Origin: Thermoguttaceae bacterium
GTDB taxonomy: Bacteria > Planctomycetota > Planctomycetia > Pirellulales > Thermoguttaceae
Assembly: GCA_017557195.1 (NCBI GenBank)
Contig: JAFZAL010000163.1
Location: 1-53,218 of the forward strand
Direction of reading: 5' to 3'
DNA: 53,218 bases
Both the position numbers and the translations under genes were made by a program. Shown here piece after piece: positions 8,737 through 36,155 of the stretch (its first letter is position 1; every line of letters starts with the position of its first letter). The notes beneath the pieces were generated by a model. The model did no database searches and was not told the DNA's origin. It saw only the letters and a list, made by a program, of their open reading frames with translations.

Positions 8737-9288
8737 TTATTTGTCTCCGTTTCCTTTACCGTCCTCGTCTCCTTTACCGCCTCTTCTACTATAATATTCT
8801 TTAAGGAAACGTAAAAAAGCCTTGCGACGGTCTCTTTCCAGGTATCGAATCATGCCGTTCATGCCCATTCGGTTGGCAGTGTCGACGTCAATATTGTCGC
8901 TATAGTACCAGTCCGGCAGAACTTTATAGCCGCTGCTGCGGGCGTAACCCTGAACCAATTCCCGGAGTGGAAATTCAGAACAGCTGCAAACGCGAATGAC
9001 GTGTTCTGCGTCCCTGTAAATAACAAAAGGAAAGCCGATCTCTCTAATCCCCTTCGTTAAAGCGCAAATCGGTTCCGCATAATCTTCGTCATTGTGCGAT
9101 TCAATGTATTCGTCCGCAGACCGATACCCAAACACGTCGTTCTCTTTGACGATATCAACGGGATATTCAATCCCAATGCCCTTTGTAATAAGCAAAAGCC
9201 GATTTTCCATGTCCTCAAACAGTCTTTTGTCCGGGACTTCAAAGCAATGCTCGATGCCGTCCCTGTCTCGGTCGTAATAGTAAAACAT
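8737..9288 (-). CDS. Hypothetical protein
   Basis: From ATG 9288, chosen because AAGGAGG lies 8 nt upstream, the protein has 183 residues; the longer upstream frame lacks such a site. It starts MFYYYDRDRDGIEH, is moderately acidic in its middle (SADEYIESHNDEDYAEP) and ends in a basic, Gly-rich tail (RRGGKGDEDGKGNGDK). No transmembrane segment or known motif is seen. Function unknown. Confidence 0.7.
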   Translation of the reverse strand: MFYYYDRDRDGIEHCFEVPDKRLFEDMENRLLLITKGIGIEYPVDIVKENDVFGYRSADEYIESHNDEDYAEPICALTKGIREIGFPFVIYRDAEHVIRVCSCSEFPLRELVQGYARSSGYKVLPDWYYSDNIDVDTANRMGMNGMIRYLERDRRKAFLRFLKEYYSRRGGKGDEDGKGNGDK

Positions 9289-9882
9289 AGTTTTGTTCCT
9301 CCTTGGGTTGTCAACTATAAAACAAATCTTCCTTAGGACAACCACTATACCACAAACGAAAACGAAATGAAACACCCTGACGCGAAAAATCCCGAACGTA
9401 ACTGTCACAATTGCAATATGTTAAAAGTATTAGTTATAATTGAATTAGATGATAAATCCAACGACGAACAAAAGCGAGATACGCGTTAAACTTTGCGGTT
9501 TAAGAAGATGAGGGAAAACTGTCTGCTCCCCTTGTTTTTATGAATCGCCTTGTGTATTTTCTCAAGACTTCTCGTCTCTTGCTCATACTGTCTATTTTAA
9601 AACTCGAAAAAATTTTTTCAGATTTTTCGTTTTTTCTGGATGGTCTGGTGATTTCGTTCAAAAACGGGGACGTTTTCGTCGTTTTTTGGGATTGATTTCG
9701 GGGGAGAATTGTCTTGATTCCAGACGGGGAACGGGAGCGATATCGGCTTCTGGGTGTGCGCCTTCGCACCGCGGCAGCGCGGATTGGGAGCGGCGCCACG
9801 CCGCCCCCCCTTGTTAATGAAGAAAGCTCTGATTATAATAAATTCAATTAGTTATATATTATTAATCGATTTGAGGCGTATT
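9289..9882. other. Intergenic region with inverted GC-rich repeat copy
   Basis: No gene supported. The stretch 9768-9808 (cagcgcggattgggagcggc core) is the inverse of 13862-13902, so it is a dispersed repeat. The AT-rich part 9820-9882 is the likely promoter region of the transporter. Confidence 0.55.
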
Positions 9883-11307
9883 ATGCGTTGGCTTTATCTG
9901 TTTTATATTGTAATTGCGTCCGCGCTGGGCGGGCTGATTTTCGGGTTCGACTCCGGCGTTATTTCCGGCTGTGAAAAGGTCATCCAGGATCAGTATCAAC
10001 TCACGCCGTTTAACCACGGGTTAACGGTGTCGATTGCTTTAATCGGTACGGTAATCGGCGCGTTTGGAATCGGGCGTCCGTGCGACCTGCTCGGCAGACG
10101 CCGTTCTCTGTTTTTGATGGCGCTGTTGTTCTTTATTTCGGCGGCAGGCTGCGCGTTCGCCCCGAACTGGCTGACGCTTGTCATCATGAGATTTATCGGC
10201 GGGCTGGCGATTGGCGGCGTTTCGGTCGTCGTGCCGCTGTACATTGTAGAAATCGCGCCAGGACATTTGCGAGGCCGTCTGGTTGCGATAAACCAGCTCA
10301 ATATCGTCTGCGGTATTTTGGCGTCGTACGTTTCCAACTATCTGGTTGCCAGGGCGATTGACAATCAGTCGGTTGTTTGGGACTGGTGCACAAAGCTGGC
10401 GAACTTCTTTGTTACAACGCCTATGGGCGCGGACGAAATCAAATGGAGGCTCATGCTCGGGGCGGAATGTCTGCCGATTATTCTATTCTGGGCGCTGCTG
10501 TTTACTATTCCGGAAAGCCCGCGATGGCTGGTGAGAAAGAATCGCAAAGAGGAAGCGAAGAAGGTTCTGGAAAAGATCGGAGACGAGAACTGCGACAAGA
10601 CGCTCGACGAGATTTCCAATTCTCTGGCGATGATTCAACGTCAGGGACAGGACAACGTCCGACTCTTCCAGAAGAAGTACCTGTGGGTTATTTTCCTTGC
10701 CTGGGCGGTGGCGATGTTCAATCAGTTGTCGGGCATCAATGCGATCATTTACTACGCGCCCAGAGTATTTGAAATGTGCAATCTGGGAACGAATTCCGCC
10801 TTGCTTGCCAGCGTTGGACTTGGAACCGTCAACCTGATATTTACGGTTTTGGCGCTGTTCTTTATCGACTGGTTTGGACGCCGCGCTCTTTTGATATTTG
10901 GCGCGCTGGGCACGACCGCCATGCACGTTCTGATTGCATGGCAGCTGTACCTCCCAAAAGAGCAGATCAATTCGACAGTGTGCGTTATTGGATTATTCGG
11001 ATTTCTCGCCTTCTTTGCGATTTCGCAGGGCGCGGTAATCTGGGTGTTCATTTCGGAAATCTTCCCCAACGCGGTTCGAGCCAAAGGTCAGGCGCTGGGA
11101 TCGTTTACGCACTGGTTTATGGCTGCGGTCGTATCGTGGGCGTTCCCGATTGTTGTTAATTACGCGGTCTGGCCGGCGTTTGCGTTCTTCGCCTGTATGA
11201 CGGCGCTGCAGTTCTTCTTCGCCGCGTTCCTCATGCCGGAAACCAAAGGCGGAACAATCGAACAGATGGAAAAAGAACTTGTTACATCATCGGAGGGGAC
11301 GAAGTAA
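9883..11307 (+). CDS. MFS sugar transporter (sugar porter family)
   Basis: From ATG 9883 the protein has 474 residues and about 12 membrane helices. Sugar-porter signatures are present: GFDSGVISG in helix 1, the loop 2-3 motif DLLGRRRSL, PESPRWL before the central loop, GRR after helix 8 and PETKGG at the C-terminus. Members import hexoses or pentoses with protons in the inner membrane. The track-length frame begins further upstream, but its first 43 codons run through a GC-rich repeat, so the MRWLYLFYIV start after TTGAGG is preferred. Nearby secreted glycan-degrading enzymes suggest it takes up their products. Confidence 0.93.
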   Translation: MRWLYLFYIVIASALGGLIFGFDSGVISGCEKVIQDQYQLTPFNHGLTVSIALIGTVIGAFGIGRPCDLLGRRRSLFLMALLFFISAAGCAFAPNWLTLVIMRFIGGLAIGGVSVVVPLYIVEIAPGHLRGRLVAINQLNIVCGILASYVSNYLVARAIDNQSVVWDWCTKLANFFVTTPMGADEIKWRLMLGAECLPIILFWALLFTIPESPRWLVRKNRKEEAKKVLEKIGDENCDKTLDEISNSLAMIQRQGQDNVRLFQKKYLWVIFLAWAVAMFNQLSGINAIIYYAPRVFEMCNLGTNSALLASVGLGTVNLIFTVLALFFIDWFGRRALLIFGALGTTAMHVLIAWQLYLPKEQINSTVCVIGLFGFLAFFAISQGAVIWVFISEIFPNAVRAKGQALGSFTHWFMAAVVSWAFPIVVNYAVWPAFAFFACMTALQFFFAAFLMPETKGGTIEQMEKELVTSSEGTK

Positions 11308-11602
11308 AACGAAGTGAGCGAAGCGAACGTAGTTACGCTTTGTTCGAAGTGTGAAATGCAGTATTGCGTAAGCCGGACAAGCGCTCGGATGGCGCCCGTC
11401 CCTGGGCGCCTACTTGACGGCTATGCCGTCAAGATTTTTTTCTTATGCGGCTGAGACAGCCGCGATCCAGCAGGTCGGAGCGGTTGTTCTGCGAAAGAGT
11501 ATTTTCTAGTACCAGCAAGGCGCCCAGGGACGGGCGCCATCCGGGGAAGGGTTTTGGCTTCGTCGTTTTGGTATGCACGATTCTCGCCGTTTTCCGAAAA
11601 AA
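11308..11602. repeat. Intergenic region with a perfect 25-bp inverted repeat
   Basis: It starts with a GAAGTGAGCGAAGCGAACGT repeat copy. A perfect 25-bp inverted repeat (11387-11411 and 11518-11542; arms begin GGATGGCGCCCGTCCCTGGG) flanks about 106 bp that include a TTGACGGC-GCCGTCAA palindrome. It lies between the convergent transporter and hydrolase genes. Confidence 0.8.
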
Positions 11603-13771
11603 CTACTTCCCGCTGCGGATTTTGTACATGTCTCTGCCGACGGATCGGACGGCTTGGATGAGTTCTTTATACGGCGTGTCGACAAGGTCGACCAGGCCGA
11701 TCTGGTAGTTCTCGCCGTCGCCGCGGCCGGTGGTCGCCTGAGAGCCGTACTGGAACCAGTGCGTTCCGACCCAGTAGGGGTTCTCCAGCGCGCCGCGGAC
11801 GTAGTTCTCGTAATGCTGCGCCCGGTCGGCTTGCGATTTGCAGGGAACCAGTCCCGTATGGAACATGCCGCGATCCAGCGCGCCAAAATGGAATTCCCCG
11901 ATAATACACGGTTTGTCGACGCCTTCCGGCAATGTGAAGTTGGCGATGGAGCGGTTATAGCGGTTAAAGCTGACGACGTCACAGTACTTCGCGCTGGCGC
12001 GAATCGCCAGGTCGTTGCCCCACGCGAACCGGCAGCCCAAGTCCAGCTTATTGGGGGCGAGTTCCTGAATGATCTCGTGAATGGTCTGGAAGTACTTCTC
12101 GCTGATAACCGTATAGAACGCCCGAAGGTCGTCGCCCGCCAAGTTTTTATCCGGGACGGTTTGCGATTCCAGCAGCGCGTCCCAGCTTTCGTAGGATGTC
12201 TTCCAGACGCTGTTGAGGGCGTCGACGGTTTTGTACTTGTCGCGAAGCCATGTAACAAAGGCGATCTTTGCCGGCTGGTCGGCGGGAGACGCCAACGCGC
12301 CCAGCGACAGCGATGTATCGTCACCCCAGGACATCTCGTTGTTGACGAAGTACCCGATGCAGTACGGGTCGTCGATCGTCTCTTTCATGCTGGTTAAAGA
12401 ACGGCGGAACGAGTCGGCGAATTTGGGGTCGAACGGGTCGGTGAACTTGCCCCAGTACCCGGCGGAACCCTCGATTTGTCTTGCGCCGGCGTGAAGCGTG
12501 GCGACGTACGGCGTCTTGCGTGACGAGTACAGATAGATGTTTTTGTCAGACCAGTTGGCTATCGTGTTCATCGCCCAGGATTCCAGACGCGCGTGGGCTT
12601 CCTCGCCTGCCTGTTTGTACCAGCCGTCGCCGAATTTTCGGTACAGGTTGGCGGCGGTGAAGTTGTACGTCTTGAACGGGCAGTGGGTTGAATAGTAGTT
12701 GTGCGGCGCCCAGCCGGCGGTCGAATAGAACTGCTTGAAGTTCGGGTCGTCCTGTGCGGGCAACCCTTCAAAATAGAACTCGCGGTCTGTTACAGGCGTC
12801 GTCGCGTTGCCTGTCCCGACGCAGTCAACGCCGTGAGACCAGAACAGATTCCCGTCCGGGTCGACAAGCCACCATTTCCCGTCCAGCTTGACGGTGTAGA
12901 AATGTCCGCGGGCTTCTTGTTTCGGGCCGTCCGCCCAGCCGCCGTATTTATCCCAGCAGGCAGGGCGCGGGTTGGCTTTCCAGTCCGCCTGTTCCTGAGC
13001 GACGCGCCCTTTGAGTTCCTCGTCAGAATGCGTTTTGCCGGGCCAGTCCTCGTGCTTGAACTGCCCGTAGACGTCAATCATCGGGAAGAATTCGTCGACC
13101 GTCATGCTTCGCCACGATTTGCCGGACGCGGACTCGTTGACCTCGGACTGATTTATTGCATCGGTAGACGGGGCGACTTCAATCTTAAAGACGGCAAAGC
13201 GAACCGGCTGTGCTGGCTGCGTTACGAACAGCCAGACGGACTCCATTTTCGTGAAGTCAATCGACTTGGACGCAGCGCGATCTCCGGAATCGTAGTTGAT
13301 ACGCACGCCGCCGGGTCCGCCGCGCATGGCAAAGAGCTTGTCCATAATCTCCGGGGCAAGACTCTGATTTGGCAGCGGGATTTCCCAAACGATCTTGTCT
13401 TTCGCCTTGATCTGTTTGGAAACGGAATGCCAACGCTGGGTTTTGGTTGAGTTGACGTCGTCGACGCGGCAGCAGACGGTTAAGGGAGCGTCTTCCATGT
13501 TTTTGATTGTTACATAAACAGACGTCTGCGGGCGGGACGCATCCCAGTTCCCGTGAATTGTAACGCCGGGCCAGTTGTAATTCTTGCCCAAGGCGGTAAC
13601 GACGGTTCTGTCCGGCAGGGATTCGACTTCCGAGTCCTTTATATCGAGCTTGTCAGCCTGCGACGGCTCGTAGACGCTAAACGCGCCCGGCGCCGCGTCC
13701 GCTCTTGACGCCAACGCCAGCGCCGCGCTCAAAACGAACGCCGTCAGAGCAATAATTCTATTGGATTTCAT
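11603..13771 (-). CDS. Secreted GH-A clan glycoside hydrolase, beta-agarase/GH50-like
   Basis: This 722-residue protein begins with a signal peptide (IIALTAFVLSAALALASRADA). Residues ~25-210 look like a beta-sandwich carbohydrate-binding region, followed by a TIM-barrel beginning GKWWLVDPDGNLFWSHGVD, which is characteristic of agarase-like enzymes. Two clan-A catalytic glutamates are plausible: the acid/base in YFVNNEMSW and the nucleophile in CIIGEFHFG. Such enzymes cleave beta-galactosidic bonds in polysaccharides; whether the substrate is agar-like or another galactan cannot be told. Good ribosome-binding site (AAAAGGAGTTTTATC). Convergent with the sugar transporter, which may import its products. 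Confidence 0.75.
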   Translation of the reverse strand: MKSNRIIALTAFVLSAALALASRADAAPGAFSVYEPSQADKLDIKDSEVESLPDRTVVTALGKNYNWPGVTIHGNWDASRPQTSVYVTIKNMEDAPLTVCCRVDDVNSTKTQRWHSVSKQIKAKDKIVWEIPLPNQSLAPEIMDKLFAMRGGPGGVRINYDSGDRAASKSIDFTKMESVWLFVTQPAQPVRFAVFKIEVAPSTDAINQSEVNESASGKSWRSMTVDEFFPMIDVYGQFKHEDWPGKTHSDEELKGRVAQEQADWKANPRPACWDKYGGWADGPKQEARGHFYTVKLDGKWWLVDPDGNLFWSHGVDCVGTGNATTPVTDREFYFEGLPAQDDPNFKQFYSTAGWAPHNYYSTHCPFKTYNFTAANLYRKFGDGWYKQAGEEAHARLESWAMNTIANWSDKNIYLYSSRKTPYVATLHAGARQIEGSAGYWGKFTDPFDPKFADSFRRSLTSMKETIDDPYCIGYFVNNEMSWGDDTSLSLGALASPADQPAKIAFVTWLRDKYKTVDALNSVWKTSYESWDALLESQTVPDKNLAGDDLRAFYTVISEKYFQTIHEIIQELAPNKLDLGCRFAWGNDLAIRASAKYCDVVSFNRYNRSIANFTLPEGVDKPCIIGEFHFGALDRGMFHTGLVPCKSQADRAQHYENYVRGALENPYWVGTHWFQYGSQATTGRGDGENYQIGLVDLVDTPYKELIQAVRSVGRDMYKIRSGK

Positions 13772-27620: not shown

Positions 27621-27675
27621 AAATTTAATAATTTTAGATAAATAATAGTTTATTTTTTGAACAAATTTGCGATCC

Positions 27676-28395
27676 ATGCGTATAGATAACAGAAAGGTTG
27701 ACGAGCTTCGGTCGGTGAAGGTAGTTCGTCGGTTTACGAAGACGTCAGCCGGCAGCGTTTTGATTAGCGCGGGGGACACGGTGGTCCTGTGTACAGCCAG
27801 TATAGCAACGGAGTTGCCGGGCTGGATTAAGCCAGAGGAAGGCAAGGGCTGGATTACAGCCGAGTACAATATGCTTCCCGGCAGTACTCCAACCCGGAAA
27901 AAGCGCGATCGCGACGGTCATTTAGACGGTCGCAGCGCCGAAATTCAGCGTCTTATCGGTCGTTCGCTCCGCGCAACGCTTGACCGGGTCGCTTTGGGCC
28001 CTCGGCTGATAACGCTGGATTGCGACGTCCTTCAGGCGGACGGCGGAACCAGAACTCTTTCCATAACCGGGGCGATGATTGCTCTGATTGACGCCTTGGC
28101 TACAATTCCAGACTTGGCGTCTTTTCCTCTGACTGATTCTGTTTCTGCGGTCAGCGTTGGTCTGATTGATTCTGCGCCGATGTTGGACTTGTGCTATCAG
28201 GAAGACGTTCGGGCGGAAGTTGACATGAACGTCGCCATGACGGGTTCCGGCAAGTTCATCGAGGTTCAGGGGACGGGCGAACACGCTCTGTTCGACAGAA
28301 GCCAGCTCAACGAACTGCTCAACCTGGCGGAAAAGGGATGTCGGGAACTGACCCAAATTCAGAAAGACGCCCTTGGCGCGGACTGGCCGTTTTAA
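27676..28395 (+). CDS. rph: Ribonuclease PH
   Basis: The 239-residue phosphorolytic exoribonuclease trims tRNA 3' ends. It matches family length and signatures: MRIDNRKVDELR, GWITAEYNMLPGSTPTR, GRSAEIQRLIGRSLRA, DCDVLQADGGTRTLSITGA and GTGEHALFDR. The ATG at 27676 is preferred over an upstream TTG. No downstream rdgB is attached; instead a small exported-protein gene follows after 78 bp. Confidence 0.97.
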   Translation: MRIDNRKVDELRSVKVVRRFTKTSAGSVLISAGDTVVLCTASIATELPGWIKPEEGKGWITAEYNMLPGSTPTRKKRDRDGHLDGRSAEIQRLIGRSLRATLDRVALGPRLITLDCDVLQADGGTRTLSITGAMIALIDALATIPDLASFPLTDSVSAVSVGLIDSAPMLDLCYQEDVRAEVDMNVAMTGSGKFIEVQGTGEHALFDRSQLNELLNLAEKGCRELTQIQKDALGADWPF

Positions 28396-28867: not shown

Positions 28868-28905
28868 AAACAGGCGAATCGTTTTTTGCGGTTCGCCTGT
28901 TATGT
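28868..28905. terminator. Terminator between paralog 3 and the ESCRT-like cluster
   Basis: AACAGGCGAA and TTCGCCTGTT form a 10-bp stem around a T-rich loop. It lies between convergent genes and can serve both. Confidence 0.75.
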
Positions 28906-28920
28906 TTATAGAGACCGGGG

Positions 28921-30354
28921 TTATCTAATCACCTCAAATTCCAGACATCCCGCTCCCCACGATTGCGGGTCCATATCTTTGAGCTTGTTGATCGTCTCCT
29001 GGACTTTGTCATAGGAGAGACAGGGTAAAGCTGTCAAGTCGCCGGTTTCTTCTATATTGAACAAAGGCTCTTGTGTAACGATAACGTAAACGCCCTCTAA
29101 ACCGGAAGTTGAATTCTCTACAAAAGAACCAGCGTCGAGATCCGGCATGAAGGATTCAGGGAATCTGTATTGAACGCCCTGCTCTGCTGAAACAAAAATC
29201 GTATCAGACCCGGTTAAAGAATTGGGAACTAAAATCGTCATTTTTCCGCTGGTTCCCAAATTGAGAATTGTAACATATCCGGATTTTGAACAGACCAGCG
29301 AAAAATCTAACGACTCTCCCTGACGAAGCGTATTCCATTCTCCGAGAACGCCCTGATAGAAAAGCGAACTGGCAGAAATGGCTGTGTTTTTCATTTCGAC
29401 GCCGCAAATTTCCGCCTGATTTTTCATCAGAATGCTGAAGTCAACTGCAATGTTTTTTTCCTTGACAGAAAGCGTCGGCCATTTATTTGAATGCGCCATT
29501 GCAATGCGTTCTTCGTCCAGCTTTCTCTGATGTTCCAGCCTGGCTTTTCGTTCTTCTTCCTCAATACGTCTTTGATAAGCAGCCTCTTGATTGAGACGTT
29601 CCTGTTCTTTATTTTTGATTTCCAGCTCTGTGAGACGAACCTGCTCGCGCATGGTTTCCATTTTCGCTTCGTGTTCCGCTTTATTTTGGGCGGTGATCCT
29701 TCTGTGTTTCTCTTCCTCAAGCTCTTTTTGCCGTTTTGCGAGTTCTTCCTGAAGACGCTTTTCTTCCGAGGGCGAGTTCCCTTCGACTGATTCGACAAAT
29801 TCCAGACTTGTCCCCTCGACATATTTCGCTGCCATTGGAGCAAAATAATATCGATGCAGAGCCGCTGCAATTGTCGCTCCCGTCAGACCCGTTTTCCAGT
29901 TGTCGAGATTGAGTTTGTGCGCTTCCACCTGCAAAACGTTATAGAACGGCGCTTCCCAAAGGTCGCACAGACTGTCTTCCGTCAATTCTGTATTTTCAGA
30001 GATGCGTTTGGCGTGACGTCTGAAAAAACATTCCGGATTCGTAATCTTGACAGCGGCTTTGGCGTTGACGGTAAGCGTATTGCCGTCGGCAAGCGTTAAT
30101 TCTTCAAAATGAAGATTAACGTAAAAAAGCGACTGCGTGATTTTATAGACGGTGTCGCCGGCTTTGAGCGCGCTTCTCGCCTCCTCCTTTGACAAAAGCC
30201 ACAGCTTGCTTTGCTTGTCCGGGATTTCTTCTTCCAGAATAAACCAGTTGTTTTCGGAATCGGAAAGGTAGTCGGACAGTATTTTAGGTCGTTTAAAAAA
30301 CAGACCAAACAACCCCAGGTTTGGCAGCGTCAGTTTTTTTGAAATGGAAGCCAT
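28921..30354 (-). CDS. Band-7/SPFH-like coiled-coil protein with DUF4384-like C-terminus
   Basis: The 477-residue protein has three parts. Residues ~1-180 resemble a Band-7/SPFH-like beta-rich domain (GDTVYKITQSLFYVNLHFEEL; NAKAAVKITNPECFF; FYNVLQVEAHKLNLDNW). Residues ~195-285 form a long charged coiled coil (EEKRLQEELAKRQKELEEEK). The C-terminus (~295-465) looks like a DUF4384-type domain (GYVTILNLGTSGKMTILVPN; GVYVIVTQEPLFNIEE). No membrane helix is present. SPFH proteins form oligomeric scaffolds on membranes and partner PspA-type ESCRT-III proteins in other bacteria. It is the last gene of the cluster. Domain calls are by eye. Confidence 0.7.
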   Translation of the reverse strand: MASISKKLTLPNLGLFGLFFKRPKILSDYLSDSENNWFILEEEIPDKQSKLWLLSKEEARSALKAGDTVYKITQSLFYVNLHFEELTLADGNTLTVNAKAAVKITNPECFFRRHAKRISENTELTEDSLCDLWEAPFYNVLQVEAHKLNLDNWKTGLTGATIAAALHRYYFAPMAAKYVEGTSLEFVESVEGNSPSEEKRLQEELAKRQKELEEEKHRRITAQNKAEHEAKMETMREQVRLTELEIKNKEQERLNQEAAYQRRIEEEERKARLEHQRKLDEERIAMAHSNKWPTLSVKEKNIAVDFSILMKNQAEICGVEMKNTAISASSLFYQGVLGEWNTLRQGESLDFSLVCSKSGYVTILNLGTSGKMTILVPNSLTGSDTIFVSAEQGVQYRFPESFMPDLDAGSFVENSTSGLEGVYVIVTQEPLFNIEETGDLTALPCLSYDKVQETINKLKDMDPQSWGAGCLEFEVIR

Positions 30355-30414
30355 GACTGCAAAAGGTTAAGGTACAGACCGCATCCGGTCTGAGAACGTA
30401 CTGAACGAATGAGT

Positions 30415-31311
30415 TTATTCTTCTTCGAGTTTTCGGGCGAAGTCCAAAATCAGAAGATTATAGATGCCGTCAGCGACAATCAAGCCAATGAAAACCAGCG
30501 TTGAGATTGTATTAGCGAAGTTCGGCGGCATGATAAAATACAATGCAATCGCGCCAATAACTGTATACAGAACGAGCGTAAATGCGTTGGTTCTGTTGGA
30601 ACGTTTGGCGGCAGCCGACTTGAGGAAACCGATTGTAACAATCGGGAAGATCAAAACAGCCAGAACCCAGATCAGCAGTCTGTGCGGCCAGTTGAGATTT
30701 CGGAACCTGTCCAGAGACGATTCTGTTACTTCTGCGACGTTTTTCTTTTTCAGCGAAGCGTTATTGCAGACGTTTTCATAGATGATTGATCCGTCCTGAC
30801 CGATGAGATAATATTTAATCTCGCCGCTGACAATGCCGGCTGCTTTTTCGATATTGGCAACGCCCCAAATAGCCGCATCCGCGCCTCGGGCTTTGGCGTA
30901 CTTGCCCAGCTTGACGGCTTTGTCTGCGTTGAGATCTTCCGCTTTTGAACTGAGCGGCAAATTGAGCGCGTCGCTGACTTTTTCCAGCGCGCTTTTATCC
31001 ATAACGTAGACGCCGTCGTTCGCCTGTTTTCGAATCGCTTCTGAAATGTATCCAGACGGGTCGGCGCTGAATCGGGCGATTGCAACGGATGTAACGTCGC
31101 CTTTGTGATCGTAAATATCAGAAACAATTGGTTCGGCGGCGGCGTCTACCCAGCGGGCGAAAGTAACATCCAATGTCGGGCGGGCGGGTCCGTATTTCGT
31201 CCAGCCTAACGCCGCCAGATATCCGACGGCAACAAGACCTAAAACGGTAAAGAACAAAGAACGACGCTGTCCGAAACCGTTAACATTGACTGTAACAGGA
31301 TTGTCTGCCAT
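30415..31311 (-). CDS. Membrane protein with CsgG/LpoB-like soluble domain
   Basis: The 298-residue protein has one membrane helix near the N-terminus (FFTVLGLVAVGYLAALGW). A soluble domain of about 160 residues resembles the CsgG/LpoB-type fold (VAIARFSADPSGYISEAI; VYVMDKSALEKVSDAL; ARGADAAIWGVANIE). Three C-terminal helices start about residue 205 (LLIWVLAVLIFPIVTIGF and two more). The soluble part is predicted periplasmic. It lies 67 nt after the winged-helix gene and 60 nt before the Band-7-like gene. A likely role is the membrane anchor or sensor of the ESCRT-like machine; this is inference. Confidence 0.7.
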   Translation of the reverse strand: MADNPVTVNVNGFGQRRSLFFTVLGLVAVGYLAALGWTKYGPARPTLDVTFARWVDAAAEPIVSDIYDHKGDVTSVAIARFSADPSGYISEAIRKQANDGVYVMDKSALEKVSDALNLPLSSKAEDLNADKAVKLGKYAKARGADAAIWGVANIEKAAGIVSGEIKYYLIGQDGSIIYENVCNNASLKKKNVAEVTESSLDRFRNLNWPHRLLIWVLAVLIFPIVTIGFLKSAAAKRSNRTNAFTLVLYTVIGAIALYFIMPPNFANTISTLVFIGLIVADGIYNLLILDFARKLEEE

Positions 31312-31378
31312 GATTCTGTTTCCTCAATAAAGCGTGTAACGAAATAAACCGTATAACAAATCGTTGATTAAATTGACT

Positions 31379-31801
31379 CTACTTGCGTTTGACAATTGTC
31401 AGACATTCTTTTCCGGTAGAGTCGACGGCTGCATCTTCAAAATAATAGTCCGACGTCTGAACCAGAATCTGGAAAACGTCTTCCACCTGAGAAACGCTCA
31501 TTTTTAACTCGTTGGCGACGTCGACAGAACGGATGTTGCCAAAACCGCTGTGCTTTGAGCGCTTGTCAACCTCCGCTTTGACGCGGCGAATTCTGGTTGG
31601 CTTGTCCCAGACGTATCCCGATTCGGCAAACAGACGCCGATGGTCAGGCGTATCGGCGGAAACCAGCGATTCATTGAATGGAGAGCGGATAACGACTTGT
31701 CCGGGAAAAAGAATTTTGCCGTTGCAGGCGTCAACCGCTTCCGTTTGCAATTCAATCAAATAATCGTCAAAGTGAGAATCTGATAATGCGGAATTACTCA
31801 T
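31379..31801 (-). CDS. Small winged-helix-like protein of the ESCRT-like cluster
   Basis: The 140-residue protein has a C-terminal helix-turn-helix-like stretch (IRSVDVANELKMSVSQVEDV) followed by a possible wing (DYYFEDAAVDSTGKECLTIV). Its start overlaps the 3' end of the Vps4-like gene by 8 nt and has a good ribosome-binding site (AAGGAAACAA), indicating translational coupling. ESCRT-II subunits are winged-helix proteins that recruit ESCRT-III, so a similar adaptor role is possible, but a DNA-binding regulator of the operon is equally possible. Confidence 0.7.
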   Translation of the reverse strand: MSNSALSDSHFDDYLIELQTEAVDACNGKILFPGQVVIRSPFNESLVSADTPDHRRLFAESGYVWDKPTRIRRVKAEVDKRSKHSGFGNIRSVDVANELKMSVSQVEDVFQILVQTSDYYFEDAAVDSTGKECLTIVKRK

Positions 31802-32903
31802 TTGTTTCCTTTTGCCAATCGAGGTATTTCTGAACCTGAGCCTTTGTAACGCTTGGCGGCGTGGACTTGAACGAGTCGTTCAGGTCGCTGAACAGCAGCG
31901 TCTGCGTCTGTTGGGGGTCGTCAATAAGACGGCTGATGGCTTTCTTTTTGGCGCGTTCGCAGATGCCTTTGATGTCGGCGCCGGAATAGCCCTCAGACTG
32001 TCGGGCGAAATCGTCCAGCTTGATATACGGATCCAACGGAACTCCCTTGAGGTTGAGTTTGAAAATCGCCAGTCGGGCGCCTTCGTCCGGAAGCCCAACG
32101 TAAATGCGTTTGCCAAATCGCCCAGGACGCAAAACTGCCGGGTCAATGTCCCAAGGGTTGTTAGTTCCACCCAAAAGCAGAAGCGTGTTTTTGCGTTCCT
32201 TCAAGCCGTCGGCAAGAATGAGAAAGTCTGTAACAGGACTGACTCTGTCTTCTGCCGAACGCTTTTTCAAAATCGATTCCGCTTCGTCGATGAAAATGAC
32301 AGAGCATTTGTGCTCGTCCGCCGCTTCAAACAGACGCCGCATGTTCTTTTCGGTTTCGCCGACGTATTTGTCTTTGATTTGCGACCCGCTGACGGAAAAG
32401 AACGCCGCGTCCAGTTCTCCGGCAACCGCTTTGGCGATAAACGTTTTTCCTGTGCCCGGAGGGCCGAAAAGCAGAATCCCGCCGCCGGCGGCAATTCCAA
32501 ACGTTTTGTACAGTTCCGGATGCTTGATCGCGTTGCCGATATCCTCTCGCAAAGCCTGTTTGACATCTTCCAACCCAGCGACGTCGTCCAGCTTGACGTT
32601 TGGTTTGTCGCGAACAAGCCATTCTTCGCCCAGACTGGAGCTGTTTTCTGAATCGGATTTCCCGTCCGCTGTAATTGTCGCGGTTTTGCCGATCTGCTTT
32701 TTGATGCTTTTAGCCGTGTCGAGCAAACTGTTGGCGTCTTCGACGTAGGCGTCTGAAACCTCGCCGTCCGTTTGACGCGCCAGCTGAAGACCGTATTCCG
32801 CCGCCTTGACGGTATGAGCAAACGCCAAGGCAAAGTCACGCTTGTCCAGCGCAGCGACAGCGGCGTCTTCATGCTCTTTCTTTTTGTCTGACAGGAAACT
32901 CAT
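31794..32903 (-). CDS. Vps4-like AAA+ ATPase with MIT-like N-terminal domain
   Basis: The 369-residue protein starts with three predicted helices (~5-72; ALDKRDFALAFAHTVKAAEY) that look like a MIT domain, joined by a linker to one classic AAA module. The motifs are Walker A GPPGTGKT (147-154), aromatic pore loop KYVGETEK (179-186), Walker B IFIDE (203-207), sensor-1 Asn at 248-249, arginine fingers in LRPGRFGKRIYVGLPDEGAR and YSGADI. The end FKSTPPSVTKAQVQKYLDW matches the C-terminal helix typical of Vps4/CdvC. The RPGRF form is closer to Cdc48/FtsH than to the RRRF of eukaryotic Vps4. Vps4 disassembles ESCRT-III polymers. Start abuts the stop of the ESCRT-III-like gene. Confidence 0.85.
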   Translation of the reverse strand: MSFLSDKKKEHEDAAVAALDKRDFALAFAHTVKAAEYGLQLARQTDGEVSDAYVEDANSLLDTAKSIKKQIGKTATITADGKSDSENSSSLGEEWLVRDKPNVKLDDVAGLEDVKQALREDIGNAIKHPELYKTFGIAAGGGILLFGPPGTGKTFIAKAVAGELDAAFFSVSGSQIKDKYVGETEKNMRRLFEAADEHKCSVIFIDEAESILKKRSAEDRVSPVTDFLILADGLKERKNTLLLLGGTNNPWDIDPAVLRPGRFGKRIYVGLPDEGARLAIFKLNLKGVPLDPYIKLDDFARQSEGYSGADIKGICERAKKKAISRLIDDPQQTQTLLFSDLNDSFKSTPPSVTKAQVQKYLDWQKETNE

Positions 32904-33554
32904 TTACTTCTCCGAGGATTCGTTAAGAATGGCGTCCATTTTTGCCTGCACGTCGTTGATTGAGGCTTTGGTTTTGGTTGTAACGTCTTTAGCTCCGCCG
33001 ATATCCAGCGCGACTTCTCCCTGAAGGGAATTGAACAGCGAGTCAACGTCTGGAATGATGTCGGTTTCTTTGACGGACATGCCGTTAATATTCTTTTCAA
33101 AGTTCTTTTCCCACATCCGATCCAGCTCAGCGCCGTCGAGGAGTTTTTCGTCGATGTTGTCCATGGCGTCGGCAATGGCGTCAACGTCGACTGTTACAAC
33201 CTGGTTAATCGCTTCCATGGCTTCAGCAAAAACGTTATTGACGTCAAGCATTTTCAGACGGGTGAGGTAATTCTGGAACACCCATTTCCGCTTTTCGAGC
33301 TGGTAAATCTGGACTTCAATGGCGCGAAACTTTTGCAGGGAGAGCATAGCCGCCGCCTTCTGACCGATTGAAGCCGCTTTTTTGGCGTCGTCCCAAGACT
33401 TGAGTTTGTCTTTCGTCAGTTCATTGATTGCCGAATTGACCGTGTCGACAGCGTCTTCCGCTTTGGTAAAGGCGCGGCGCTGACGGCGTCGGAGTTCTTT
33501 ATCGCGTTCCTGTTTGGTTTTGAACAGATTGCTGAATGATTCACTTATTCCCAT
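32904..33554 (-). CDS. ESCRT-III (Snf7/CHMP)-like coiled-coil protein with C-terminal MIM1-like motif
   Basis: The 216-residue protein has a basic N-terminal half (residues 12-33, KTKQERDKELRRRQRRAF) and a helical hairpin containing KKAASIGQKAAAMLSLQKFR and EVQIYQLEKRK (58-90), the pattern of ESCRT-III core helices. An acidic C-terminal half (DVDAIADAMDNIDEKLLDGA, 123-142) matches the region before alpha5 in CHMP proteins. The extreme C-terminus DVQAKMDAIL (201-210) resembles a MIM1, the helix bound by the MIT domain of Vps4. It does not resemble PspA at its N-terminus. Stop codon abuts the ATPase start; AAGGAG precedes its own start. Confidence 0.8.
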   Translation of the reverse strand: MGISESFSNLFKTKQERDKELRRRQRRAFTKAEDAVDTVNSAINELTKDKLKSWDDAKKAASIGQKAAAMLSLQKFRAIEVQIYQLEKRKWVFQNYLTRLKMLDVNNVFAEAMEAINQVVTVDVDAIADAMDNIDEKLLDGAELDRMWEKNFEKNINGMSVKETDIIPDVDSLFNSLQGEVALDIGGAKDVTTKTKASINDVQAKMDAILNESSEK

Positions 33555-33618
33555 TGTGGAATTCTCCTTGAATGTGAGGGGGACATGTAAAGTGTGCGAG
33601 TGGAACAGGTTGCCTGAA

Positions 33619-34353
33619 CTATTCTTCCAACTGCTCCGGCTTGGATTCGAGCGGTTTTTCCGTTGTTGTTACCGGGTCGATTTCTTTATGAAGCGCTTTG
33701 AGCTGTGCTTCCAGGGCGCTGACTTCTTCGTTTGTGGGCGCTTCGATTTTTTTCGGCGCCTCTGTATGCGGCAGAACCGGTTCCGGCGTCTTTTCAGGCG
33801 TAACAGGAGCGGTTTCGCCGTGAAGTTGAGCCAGCTTGGCGTTTAAATCGACAGCTTGTTCTTTTTCTGCTGCTGAATACCCAACTTTTTCCAAACGATT
33901 CAGCTCGCGGTCTTGAAGTTGAAGTTCCTTGACGTTGTCTAATAAATCCATTGTCAAAGTTTCCAATTGCTCAGAATCCAGGTCCGATTCAAGAGCTGTT
34001 CGATATTCTTTGTATTTGCTGATAACAGTTTGGAGAGAACTGATATTTCTGAAAATCAAATCGCGCATTCCGGACGTTGATTCAAACGTCTTGAAGAGCG
34101 AAAGAATCTCCATTTCTGTAATTTCACGAATCTTCCCGGTTTGGGAATCGCGTTCCATTTCTTTGCAGAGAATCTCTTCCTGTGTATCCTCAATAGTTCG
34201 TTTGAGGTCTTTGAGTTTGTCTTGTTGGGACTTGAGCTTGTCTTCACACTTTTTGATGTTGGCAGTAATCTCCTGAATCTTTTGGTCGGTTGGATTTTTC
34301 CACAGACCCAGCCATTCCATCAGGCGCCGAAAACCTAAAAAAATCGACAACAT
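33619..34353 (-). CDS. Second ESCRT-III-like coiled-coil protein with two MIM1-like motifs
   Basis: The 244-residue protein begins with an amphipathic, membrane-seeking helix (MLSIFLGFRRLMEWLGLW). Long coiled-coil helices follow at ~22-160 (KKCEDKLKSQQDKLKDLKRT; YKEYRTALESDLDSEQLETL). A Pro/Thr/Glu-rich tail (~180-244) is flanked by two near-identical short helices, LNAKLAQLH (170-178) and LEAQLKALH (214-222), which resemble MIM1 (LxxRLxxL). It is the first gene of the cluster, 64 nt before the Snf7-like gene. An amphipathic N-terminal helix is how Snf7 proteins attach to membranes. Homology to ESCRT-III is inferred from layout and is weaker than for its neighbour. Confidence 0.7.
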   Translation of the reverse strand: MLSIFLGFRRLMEWLGLWKNPTDQKIQEITANIKKCEDKLKSQQDKLKDLKRTIEDTQEEILCKEMERDSQTGKIREITEMEILSLFKTFESTSGMRDLIFRNISSLQTVISKYKEYRTALESDLDSEQLETLTMDLLDNVKELQLQDRELNRLEKVGYSAAEKEQAVDLNAKLAQLHGETAPVTPEKTPEPVLPHTEAPKKIEAPTNEEVSALEAQLKALHKEIDPVTTTEKPLESKPEQLEE

Positions 34354-34411: not shown

Positions 34412-34439
34412 ATTTTACAGCCTGTTTTTAGTTTTTCAA
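34412..34439 (-). promoter_or_regulatory. Candidate promoter of the ESCRT-like cluster
   Basis: Minus strand TTGAAA (34439-34434), 16-nt spacer and TAAAAT (34417-34412), about 60 nt before the first gene. Confidence 0.5.
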
Positions 34440-34673: not shown

Positions 34674-36155
34674 ATGAATAGAAGAACTGCTTTACAACTT
34701 GGCGCAATGGTTCCGCTGGCTGTTTTGAACCTGTCCCAGACGTCTGACGCCCAGGGTTGGGGTCAGGTGGGAAAACCTGTGGCGACCGAAGGCTTCGGGA
34801 CGCCGACGCCTGTTGCGATTGACAACCCGTCTATCGTCTGGCGCGAGGCGAAATGCCAGATGTGCGACCATTGCCAGAAGTCGTGCGGCTCATTGCAGTC
34901 GGTTCGCGGCTTTTACGATATCAAAGTTACAAAAAAGCCGATTTGCATTCATTGTGGGCAGTGTACGAATCTGTGCAAGTCCGGCGCCATGACGGAACGG
35001 TACGTCTACCCCGGGTTGGGTCGAGCGATCAAGGCGGCGGGGGTAACGTCGGCAATTTCCGTCGCCCCGGCGGTGCGGGTTTCGTTGGGAGAACTTTTTG
35101 GCTTCCCGCCTGGAACAAACGTCGAGGGGAAAACGGTTGCTGCGTTGAAAGAGTTGGGGTTCGATTACGTCTTCGATACGACTTTCGGCGCGGATCTGAC
35201 GGTAGTCGAGGAGGCGAAAGAGTTTATCAAGCGGCTGGAATCGAAAGAGCCGCGGCGGTTCCCGATGTTTACGTCTTGCTGTCCGGGCTGGGTGTCGTTT
35301 GCGGAATACTGGTTCCCGGAGTTTCTTCCGTATCTTTCGACGTCGAAAAGCCCGATGCTCATGCAGGGCGCGTTGATTAAGTCCATGTTCGCCAAAGAGA
35401 TGAAGCTGGAACCGTCTAAAATCGTCTCGGCTCTGGTAGCTCCCTGTACGGCGAAGAAGTACGAAATTACTCGTTCGGAAATGAACGCGGCTGGCAAGCT
35501 GGCGGGCAGCGATTCCGTCCGCGACATGGATTGGGCGATTACCGTTCGGGAGCTGGGGCGCTGGATTGACGAGTCGGGGATTGACTTTGAGGACCTGGAA
35601 CCGGTTCCGTTTGATTCCGTAATGAGCCACGAGACAGACGCCGGTCTGATTTTTGGCGCGACCGGCGGCGTCATGGAGGCGACTCTGCGGACGGCGTACT
35701 GGTACATCAACGACAAGCCCGCCCCGCCCCAGCTTCAGGAATTTACCGCCATTCGCGGCATGGACGGCGTCAAGGAAGCGGAAGTTGACCTCGGCAAAGC
35801 CGGGAAAATCAAAGTCGCCGCCGTCCATGGCGGGGCGAACGCCCGGGCGCTGCTGACGAAGATTCGCGATGGGGAAGTCAAGTACGATTTCGTCGAAGTC
35901 ATGATTTGTCCCGGCGGGTGCATTGGCGGCGGCGGTCAACCAATCGTCAAGGGGCGGGAGGCGTTTCAAGCCGTCCGACAAGCCAGAATCAAGGGCCTAT
36001 ACGGCATGATTCGCGGCGACAAACCCCGGCTGGCGCACGAAAACCCGGACGTTCAGCGCGCCTATTCCGAGTTCCTGTCCAAAGACGGCTCTGACCTTAG
36101 CGAAAAACTGCTTCATACGAGCGCGTACGTTGACCGATCCGGCGAGCTAGGTTGA
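34674..36155 (+). CDS. Tat-exported [FeFe] hydrogenase, single chain
   Basis: The 493-residue enzyme interconverts protons and H2. A twin-arginine signal (NRRTALQLG, hydrophobic stretch to ~20) predicts export. Two [4Fe-4S] clusters follow: Cys61/64/67/71 and Cys91/94/97/101. The H-cluster motifs are complete: TSCCPGW (200-206), PCTAKKYE (257-264) and ICPGGCIGGGGQP (412-424). The C-terminus (FQAVRQARIKGLYGMI..LLHTSAY) is the small-subunit domain, which in Desulfovibrio HydAB is a separate chain carrying the Tat signal. Here both are fused and the signal is at the N-terminus. Maturases HydEFG are not in the window. It suggests anaerobic metabolism. Confidence 0.93.
   Translation: MNRRTALQLGAMVPLAVLNLSQTSDAQGWGQVGKPVATEGFGTPTPVAIDNPSIVWREAKCQMCDHCQKSCGSLQSVRGFYDIKVTKKPICIHCGQCTNLCKSGAMTERYVYPGLGRAIKAAGVTSAISVAPAVRVSLGELFGFPPGTNVEGKTVAALKELGFDYVFDTTFGADLTVVEEAKEFIKRLESKEPRRFPMFTSCCPGWVSFAEYWFPEFLPYLSTSKSPMLMQGALIKSMFAKEMKLEPSKIVSALVAPCTAKKYEITRSEMNAAGKLAGSDSVRDMDWAITVRELGRWIDESGIDFEDLEPVPFDSVMSHETDAGLIFGATGGVMEATLRTAYWYINDKPAPPQLQEFTAIRGMDGVKEAEVDLGKAGKIKVAAVHGGANARALLTKIRDGEVKYDFVEVMICPGGCIGGGGQPIVKGREAFQAVRQARIKGLYGMIRGDKPRLAHENPDVQRAYSEFLSKDGSDLSEKLLHTSAYVDRSGELG

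Follow-up and report, generated by a model that had tools for sequence, protein, structure and literature searches.

Do bacteria possess ESCRT-III machines that are driven by a Vps4-type ATPase? This question is raised by a six-gene operon of a Thermoguttaceae bacterium (assembly GCA_017557195.1, contig JAFZAL010000163.1); the whole stretch of DNA analysed, 53,218 nucleotides long, is called the window here. In the consulted sections of Makarova et al. 2024 (PMC10936438), systems with vps4 and ESCRT-III are confined to archaea and eukaryotes, and the consulted part of a 2023 review describes bacteria as lacking a clear Vps4 homologue (PMC7615534). An earlier interpretation of the window (the sequence-only reading) had proposed a dedicated bacterial module of ESCRT-III and an MIT/Vps4-type ATPase, and our checks of the two proteins and of their linkage support this proposal. 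The operon probably specifies a bacterial machine of the ESCRT-III/Vps4 type whose task would be to remodel or repair the cytoplasmic membrane; we give this predicted function a probability of about 0.7.

The products of genes B and C

The listing of open reading frames (ORFs) of the window places six genes, A to F, on the minus strand from 34353 to 28921. They are spaced by 64 nt (A-B), 0 nt (B-C), an 8-nt overlap (C-D), 67 nt (D-E) and 60 nt (E-F), with the TAA stop codon of B abutting the ATG start codon of C. The coordinates, strand, gaps, abutting junction and overlap given by the sequence-only reading were all borne out by this listing.

Gene B encodes an ESCRT-III protein of the Snf7 type. 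The Pfam Snf7 model (PF03357) matched residues 34-166 at 28.8 bits against a cut-off of 27.3, and PspA_IM30 (PF04012) was not among the Pfam matches of B at E<=1. An AlphaFold model of B, built from 22 sequences, had a mean predicted local distance difference test (pLDDT) score of 62, with block values of 78-93 over residues 21-100 and of less than 50 beyond residue 118. Helices were predicted at residues 3-8, 14-62, 66-127, 141-158, 168-184 and 199-212, the C-terminal half having low pLDDT, and this predicted layout is that of ESCRT-III proteins. When the model was searched with Foldseek, ranks 1-37 were all chains of the ESCRT-III superfamily and ranks 1-8 had a probability of 1.00. The matches included Asgard ESCRT-IIIB, CHMP1B, Loki CHMP4-7, CdvB, PspA, Vipp1, Snf7 and CHMP2A/3; the best E-value was 1.3e-3, with no row at 0.001, and the weight of the search rests on the uniform ranking. 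The Pfam score and this ranking both agree with the earlier assignment of B to ESCRT-III. VIA-align superposed B on Snf7 cores at 1.1-1.5 A over 101 residues, fits that do not discriminate these cores from other helical chains, helical-hairpin matches being cheap. The charge of B was +9 in residues 1-110 and -14 after them, giving a basic core and an acidic C-terminal part.

Searches of PDB sequences with B and with a profile of window-type B proteins returned no ESCRT-III. A profile of Snf7-a, a planctomycete family from a larger operon described below, matched five PDB sequences at E<=1, all of them CHMP3 or CHMP2A (9.8e-5 to 6.7e-3), and hhalign linked the B-type and Snf7-a families at 94.1% (E 1.2e-7). 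The module had been described as more eukaryote- or archaea-like, which fits B, given the Snf7 model and these five matches. It had also been described as separate from PspA, and this is supported: B shares the superfamily fold of the bacterial PspA/Vipp1 proteins in Foldseek but differs from them in that PF04012 matched neither B nor anything else in its own genome (assembly of 4.18 Mb in 239 contigs, 91% complete). NCBI labels on relatives already read 'Snf7 family protein'. Among 117 B-type relatives, conservation of the C-terminal tail was 0.77 compared to 0.52 for the preceding linker and 0.80-0.95 for the core. The consensus tail of these relatives contains RLxxL and resembles an MIT-interacting motif.

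The evidence supports C as an MIT-AAA ATPase of the Vps4 type. Pfam detected AAA (128.5 bits) and AAA_lid_3 (40.8 bits), and the protein has a single AAA+ cassette with catalytic motifs. Residues 1-80 were confidently predicted to form a three-helix bundle, and the first eight Foldseek matches of this bundle were MIT domains, seven of the eight from Vps4-type ATPases. The MIT-like helices of the sequence-only reading are thus upheld as a predicted fold. For the Vps4-type C-terminal helix that it also named, the region of Vps4 oligomerisation, the Vps4_C score (PF09336) was below the cut-off, and part of the C relatives have Vps4_C as a precomputed domain. With the CdvC equivalog model NF041006, C scored 215.6 bits over residues 4-365, below the curated cut-off of 650, and with the IteA model NF042959 (the IetAS anti-phage ATPase) it scored 114.1 bits, below the cut-off of 510. 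Its best AAA matches were of the Cdc48 type. A plasmid search with C gave nothing at 1e-60, phage records being outside this search.

Table 1. Features of the operon and its borders, in window positions
Feature	Position	Strand	Description
Gene A	33619-34353	-	244-aa coiled-coil protein, hydrophobic N-terminal stretch, acidic second half; putative role only
Gene B	32904-33554	-	Snf7-type ESCRT-III protein, 216 aa
B residues 14-127	33174..33515	-	predicted helix 1 / helix 2-3 hairpin
B residues 199-212	32919..32960	-	C-terminal helix, low pLDDT; possible MIT-binding tail
Gene C	31794-32903	-	MIT-AAA+ ATPase of Vps4 type (supported), 369 aa
C residues 1-76	32676..32903	-	MIT-like three-helix bundle (predicted)
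C residues 143-271	32091..32477	-	AAA core with GPPGTGKT, IFIDE, KYVGE, RPGRF
C residues 335-366	31806..31901	-	Vps4_C-like stretch; PF09336 18.5 bits, cut-off 21.3
Gene D	31379-31801	-	140 aa; winged helix suspected
Gene E	30415-31311	-	298-aa membrane protein, soluble part between 1 + 3 hydrophobic segments
Gene F	28921-30354	-	477 aa; putative N-terminal SPFH-like region, coiled coil, C-terminal DUF4384
F residues 343-430	29065..29328	-	DUF4384; Pfam 38.5 bits, cut-off 27
Promoter-like TTGAAA-16-TAAAAT	34412..34439	-	about 60 nt upstream of A; consensus match only
14-pair inverted repeat	28869..28901		past F, between convergent genes; terminator-like on + strand only

Conservation and a larger sister operon

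The genes are linked and conserved. The same six-gene order was found in two of the three other genomes of the genus (G001 and G003), the G003 copy having an additional second Snf7 gene. B was present in three of the four genus genomes, its own included, and no B was found in G002 (86% complete). Across the family, B matches occurred in 7 of 119 genomes, the own genome counted and one match being weak. In family genome G460 the order was A, a second gene weakly similar to A, two B-like genes, C, a weakly D-like gene, E and F. The dN/dS ratios (nonsynonymous to synonymous) were 0.05-0.26 across all six genes, indicating purifying selection, with the G001 copy of A taken over the window's length rather than from its start codon and with synonymous sites close to saturation in several comparisons to G003. 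Where close relatives of B and C carry a name, it is 'Thermoguttaceae bacterium', after a family in the Pirellulales (Planctomycetia). The linkage expected by the sequence-only reading is therefore conserved as gene order in the genus, partly in the family, and as the B-C pair further out.

For the pair outside the family, 4291 of the 7996 candidates scored were relatives of C, and 362 of 1033 candidates were relatives of B when its G150 sequence was the query. The contig sizes of 29 of the 118 C relatives listed were exactly equal to that of one of the 118 B relatives listed, compared to a mean of 0.68 and a maximum of 3 matches in a control with sizes shifted by 1-50 bases. Among the taxa on these size-matched contigs are Hydrogenedentes, Thermodesulfobacteriota and Sedimentisphaerales. 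In G150 Snf7 is followed by C and then by a caspase-domain protein; at this locus (L157:1996-4823) the protein after the ATPase has PF00656 at 57.1 bits and GYF_2, and by eye an FGE-sulfatase-like C-terminus seemingly lies upstream of Snf7. In G450 (L141:1007-4404) the protein after the ATPase combines a PADLOC caspase match with an FGE-sulfatase domain.

A larger operon was found with the planctomycete Snf7-a profile, which gave 85 relatives in genome contigs and 80 loci that were examined; their titles name planctomycete taxa in 66 cases, Clostridia or Eubacteriales in 8, and other or no taxa in 6. The typical order is c1, a coiled coil (c3/c26), Snf7-b (c2/c13), AAA1, Snf7-a, AAA2, c11 and the membrane protein c29, gene labels being our own. 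Six-frame ORFs were used for the counts because a codon-usage gene caller splits or misses genes. With many loci cut by contig ends, an ATPase (C, AAA1 or AAA2 profile, >180 bits) was found in 59 of 80 loci (52 of 72 non-clostridial, 7 of 8 clostridial), Snf7-b in 74, c1 in 63, a c11- or SPFH-type gene in 49 and the membrane protein in 31; the counts are not independent, as the broad profiles of Snf7, Snf7-b, c1 and c29 were built from the loci counted and the ATPase profiles were derived from loci partly on the same contigs. hhalign gave no link between Snf7-b (c2, c13) and Snf7-a, so the term ESCRT-III-like for Snf7-b rests on its position, size and charge.

AAA2 aligned with C over 366 columns, the N-terminus included. 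In a tree of 44 ATPase rows, the C-type proteins formed one clade (100/100), and C-type and AAA2 together stood apart from the Cdc48 rows (95/93), the only archaeal rows in the tree being four Thorarchaeota Cdc48 fragments. AAA1 was separate on a long branch, and the program warns that the long branches of AAA1 and Cdc48 meet.

A profile that included window-type rows detected ESCRT-III-type genes in 57 of 382 planctomycete genomes, the own genome counted, and, within one clostridial order, in 28 of 297. Pfam Snf7 alone found 27 of 392 planctomycete genomes, 5 of them over the cut-off, suggesting that a Pfam-based survey would miss many. A candidate proteobacterial case, L079 (JAFMMO010000127.1, titled 'Proteobacteria bacterium'), was rejected: in contig number and coordinates it is identical to G215, of the window's own phylum, and its title looks mislabelled.

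The sister loci carry varied neighbours. The first gene of clostridial L127 encodes a Band_7_1 protein, over the cut-off, with zinc ribbons, and two large proteins lie between its Snf7 and ATPase genes (8782-12297), the first of which scores over cut-off for a TIR domain and for TPRs; L126 has neighbours of similar size. In another clostridial operon a BrxL-type protein (PADLOC 681 bits) is encoded directly 3' of the ATPase gene (L131:12041-13480). By eye, a kinase-like protein ends the larger operon of L052, and in L039 (8546-10552) and similar loci of one planctomycete family the operon has MurD-like and PEGA-like genes as convergent neighbours.

Proposed function and competing explanations

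Everything past the identity of B and C we infer. B may form filaments on the membrane's inner face; C would grip B via its predicted MIT bundle and extract subunits. The C-terminal helix of B is a candidate for what this bundle binds, and the C ring may thread B with its pore loop (KYVGE). E, with its 1 + 3 segments, and the SPFH-like, DUF4384-bearing F could provide a membrane platform that positions B, while A might be a co-polymer or regulator and D an adaptor. Even within the family the genes occur patchily, and for this reason we favour damage repair or stress-driven remodelling rather than a housekeeping role. Planctomycetes are known for unusual inner-membrane shapes and for division without FtsZ. 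With somewhat less assurance, we further propose that bacteria own complete Vps4-driven ESCRT-III machines, comprising a Snf7-type polymer, an MIT-AAA ATPase and membrane-platform partners, which would make up a diversified and patchily distributed module in Planctomycetota, Clostridia and other phyla. If this is true, Vps4-type disassembly of ESCRT-III is no private invention of archaea and eukaryotes. With the two genes abutting and with relatives in several lineages, the question of where the Vps4 step arose becomes testable; B and C would be a minimal pair for reconstitution.

Several results weigh against such a machine. The tail of B in the window, INDVQAKMDAIL, does not literally keep the RLxxL of its relatives. 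The B-C dyad is rare in Planctomycetota: the B-type profile found, in 294 genomes, only the own genome, G150 and one weak match, and a repeat search of the phylum found one of 246, again the G150 locus. The missing motif and the rarity of the dyad slightly lowered our confidence in the machine and slightly raised it in two of the competing explanations. At the N-terminus of C, Pfam MIT had no match, and a PDB search with a profile of the MIT region returned no MIT, only designed proteins and one SEL-1 repeat protein.

The partner genes add further points on this side. The sequence-only reading had counted two ESCRT-III-style coiled-coil proteins; B stands, but A as a second ESCRT-III was not supported, hhalign giving <5% against every ESCRT-III set tried. 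A had no Pfam family over cut-off, its charge is 0 in residues 1-110 and -14 after them, and it was found in G001, G003 and, together with a second, weakly similar copy, in G460. The winged-helix likeness named for D was not confirmed: D had no Pfam or NCBIfam match, and no winged-helix family appeared among 14 D and c1 members. hhalign paired D with family c1b at 24.4% (E 8.1e-4 over 50 columns) and at 1.0% using a wider D set, which leaves D as a c1 wing unsupported. Neither A nor D had usable relatives beyond its own kind. A weak D-like match was seen at L139:2-1723; the ORF around it has 574 residues, and its initial part resembles a papain-type cysteine peptidase by eye.

E was rightly called a membrane protein, with hydrophobic segments at residues 18-36, 212-230, 243-261 and 265-283, and its likeness to LpoB and CsgG is weak, each matching one of 11 E-family members (E ~0.03). 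E is homologous to the membrane protein of the larger operon (family c29b; hhalign 99.2%, E 2.5e-19), and the E/c29 family has invariant R, W, P and two N residues. In F, the predicted DUF4384 was present, as it was in the F-type proteins of G001, G003 and G460 (loci L032, L033 and L140), but the Band-7 part of the claim was not confirmed, and the Band 7 profile had no match in F itself. Band_7 was detected in 3 of 13 F and c11 members (best 1.8e-5), two of them identified as the c11 proteins of L073 and L112, below cut-off; hhalign paired the N-terminal region of F with c11 at 31.9% (E 4.9e-4).

Alternatively, the B-C pair could lie at the heart of a system for defence or damage response, sensing or handling membrane injury and working with exchangeable effectors (caspase-like peptidases, TIR proteins); the version in the window would have retained other partners (E, and F with DUF4384). 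This is suggested by the neighbours in relatives, namely the caspase-domain protein 3' of C in G150, the caspase-match/FGE-sulfatase protein in G450, the TIR-domain protein between Snf7 and ATPase in L127 and the BrxL-type protein in L131, and by the patchy distribution. However, no effector was recognised in the window operon, and 31 of the 72 non-clostridial loci have the membrane protein instead. PADLOC returned nothing specific for the window genes, with no match for B, D, E and F and two matches of <14 bits for A; C matched IetA/TRIP13 as an AAA and lies far below the IteA cut-off. We consider a defence role of this kind unlikely.

The absence of any FtsZ/tubulin match in the own genome, in a search positive in 13 of 14 control genomes, is compatible with a division or vesiculation machine replacing FtsZ, as Cdv does in Sulfolobales; Sulfolobus division is driven by ESCRT-III and Vps4 homologues according to the consulted part of PMC7613921. 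The genes are too patchy for an essential role, as seen in the family and phylum frequencies given above for B (7/119) and for ESCRT-III-type genes (57/382). On this ground we discarded cell division as the principal role, and we consider it highly improbable. To our knowledge, FtsZ is also absent from many planctomycetes without this operon, which counts further against a division machine. We give as little credence to a third explanation, in which C is an AAA+ unfoldase whose TPR/MIT-like helical adaptor acts on a non-membrane coiled-coil substrate, the likeness to ESCRT being shallow. Weak TPR scores at N-termini related to that of C, the Cdc48-type AAA matches and the cheapness of helical-hairpin matches agree with it. 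Against it stand the score of B over the Snf7 cut-off, ESCRT-III in Foldseek ranks 1-37, MIT domains in the first eight matches of the C bundle and the adjacency of the B and C genes in several lineages.

Relation to known systems and neighbouring features

In archaeal ESCRT (Cdv), as in the membrane-remodelling machine that we favour, an ESCRT-III gene and the gene of a Vps4-type ATPase lie close together. In the consulted sections of PMC10936438, some archaeal ESCRT loci ('Meth_adaptin' and others) include winged-helix and SPFH genes, and kinase and zinc-ribbon parts also occur. The window differs in its bacterial host and in a C protein far below the CdvC cut-off, and DUF4384, an E protein with 1 + 3 segments and a coiled-coil A are not among the archaeal parts given in those sections. 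With eukaryotic ESCRT-III/Vps4 the window shares the Snf7 core fold and the MIT fold, both by prediction. In contrast to the eukaryotic system, no ESCRT-0/I/II part was identified here, Pfam MIT is unmatched, and one window gene only is certain as ESCRT-III.

The consulted part of Ravi et al. 2024 (PMC11237479) briefly mentions bacterial Snf7 and AAA+ ATPases, and it shares with our case operons of a Snf7-/PspA-type protein and an AAA+ ATPase as well as Vps4-like ATPases in bacteria. In the Vps4-like cases described there, a TPR/6TM protein takes the place of snf7; in those with Snf7, it has a membrane segment and is accompanied by ABC-transporter and OmpA/PBPB genes. In the window, by contrast, the Snf7 and MIT-AAA genes abut and have E/F-type partners. 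A literature search by title and abstract, with preprints and supplements outside its scope, found no description of a bacterial Snf7 and MIT-Vps4 operon, the closest remarks being those in the consulted part of PMC11237479. The kind of system is thus known; for a bacterial version in which Snf7 and MIT-AAA genes abut and E/F partners are present, the literature searched yielded no description.

The promoter-like and terminator-like sites bordering the operon (Table 1) come from a scan that found 8 promoter-like sites against 5.1 expected by chance and 17 terminator-like sites against 10.4 expected. By eye, a [FeFe]-hydrogenase-like gene (34674-36155) diverges from the operon. On its other side lies an RNase PH-like gene (27667-28395, by eye), a neighbour that G001 and G003 share (cluster c21).

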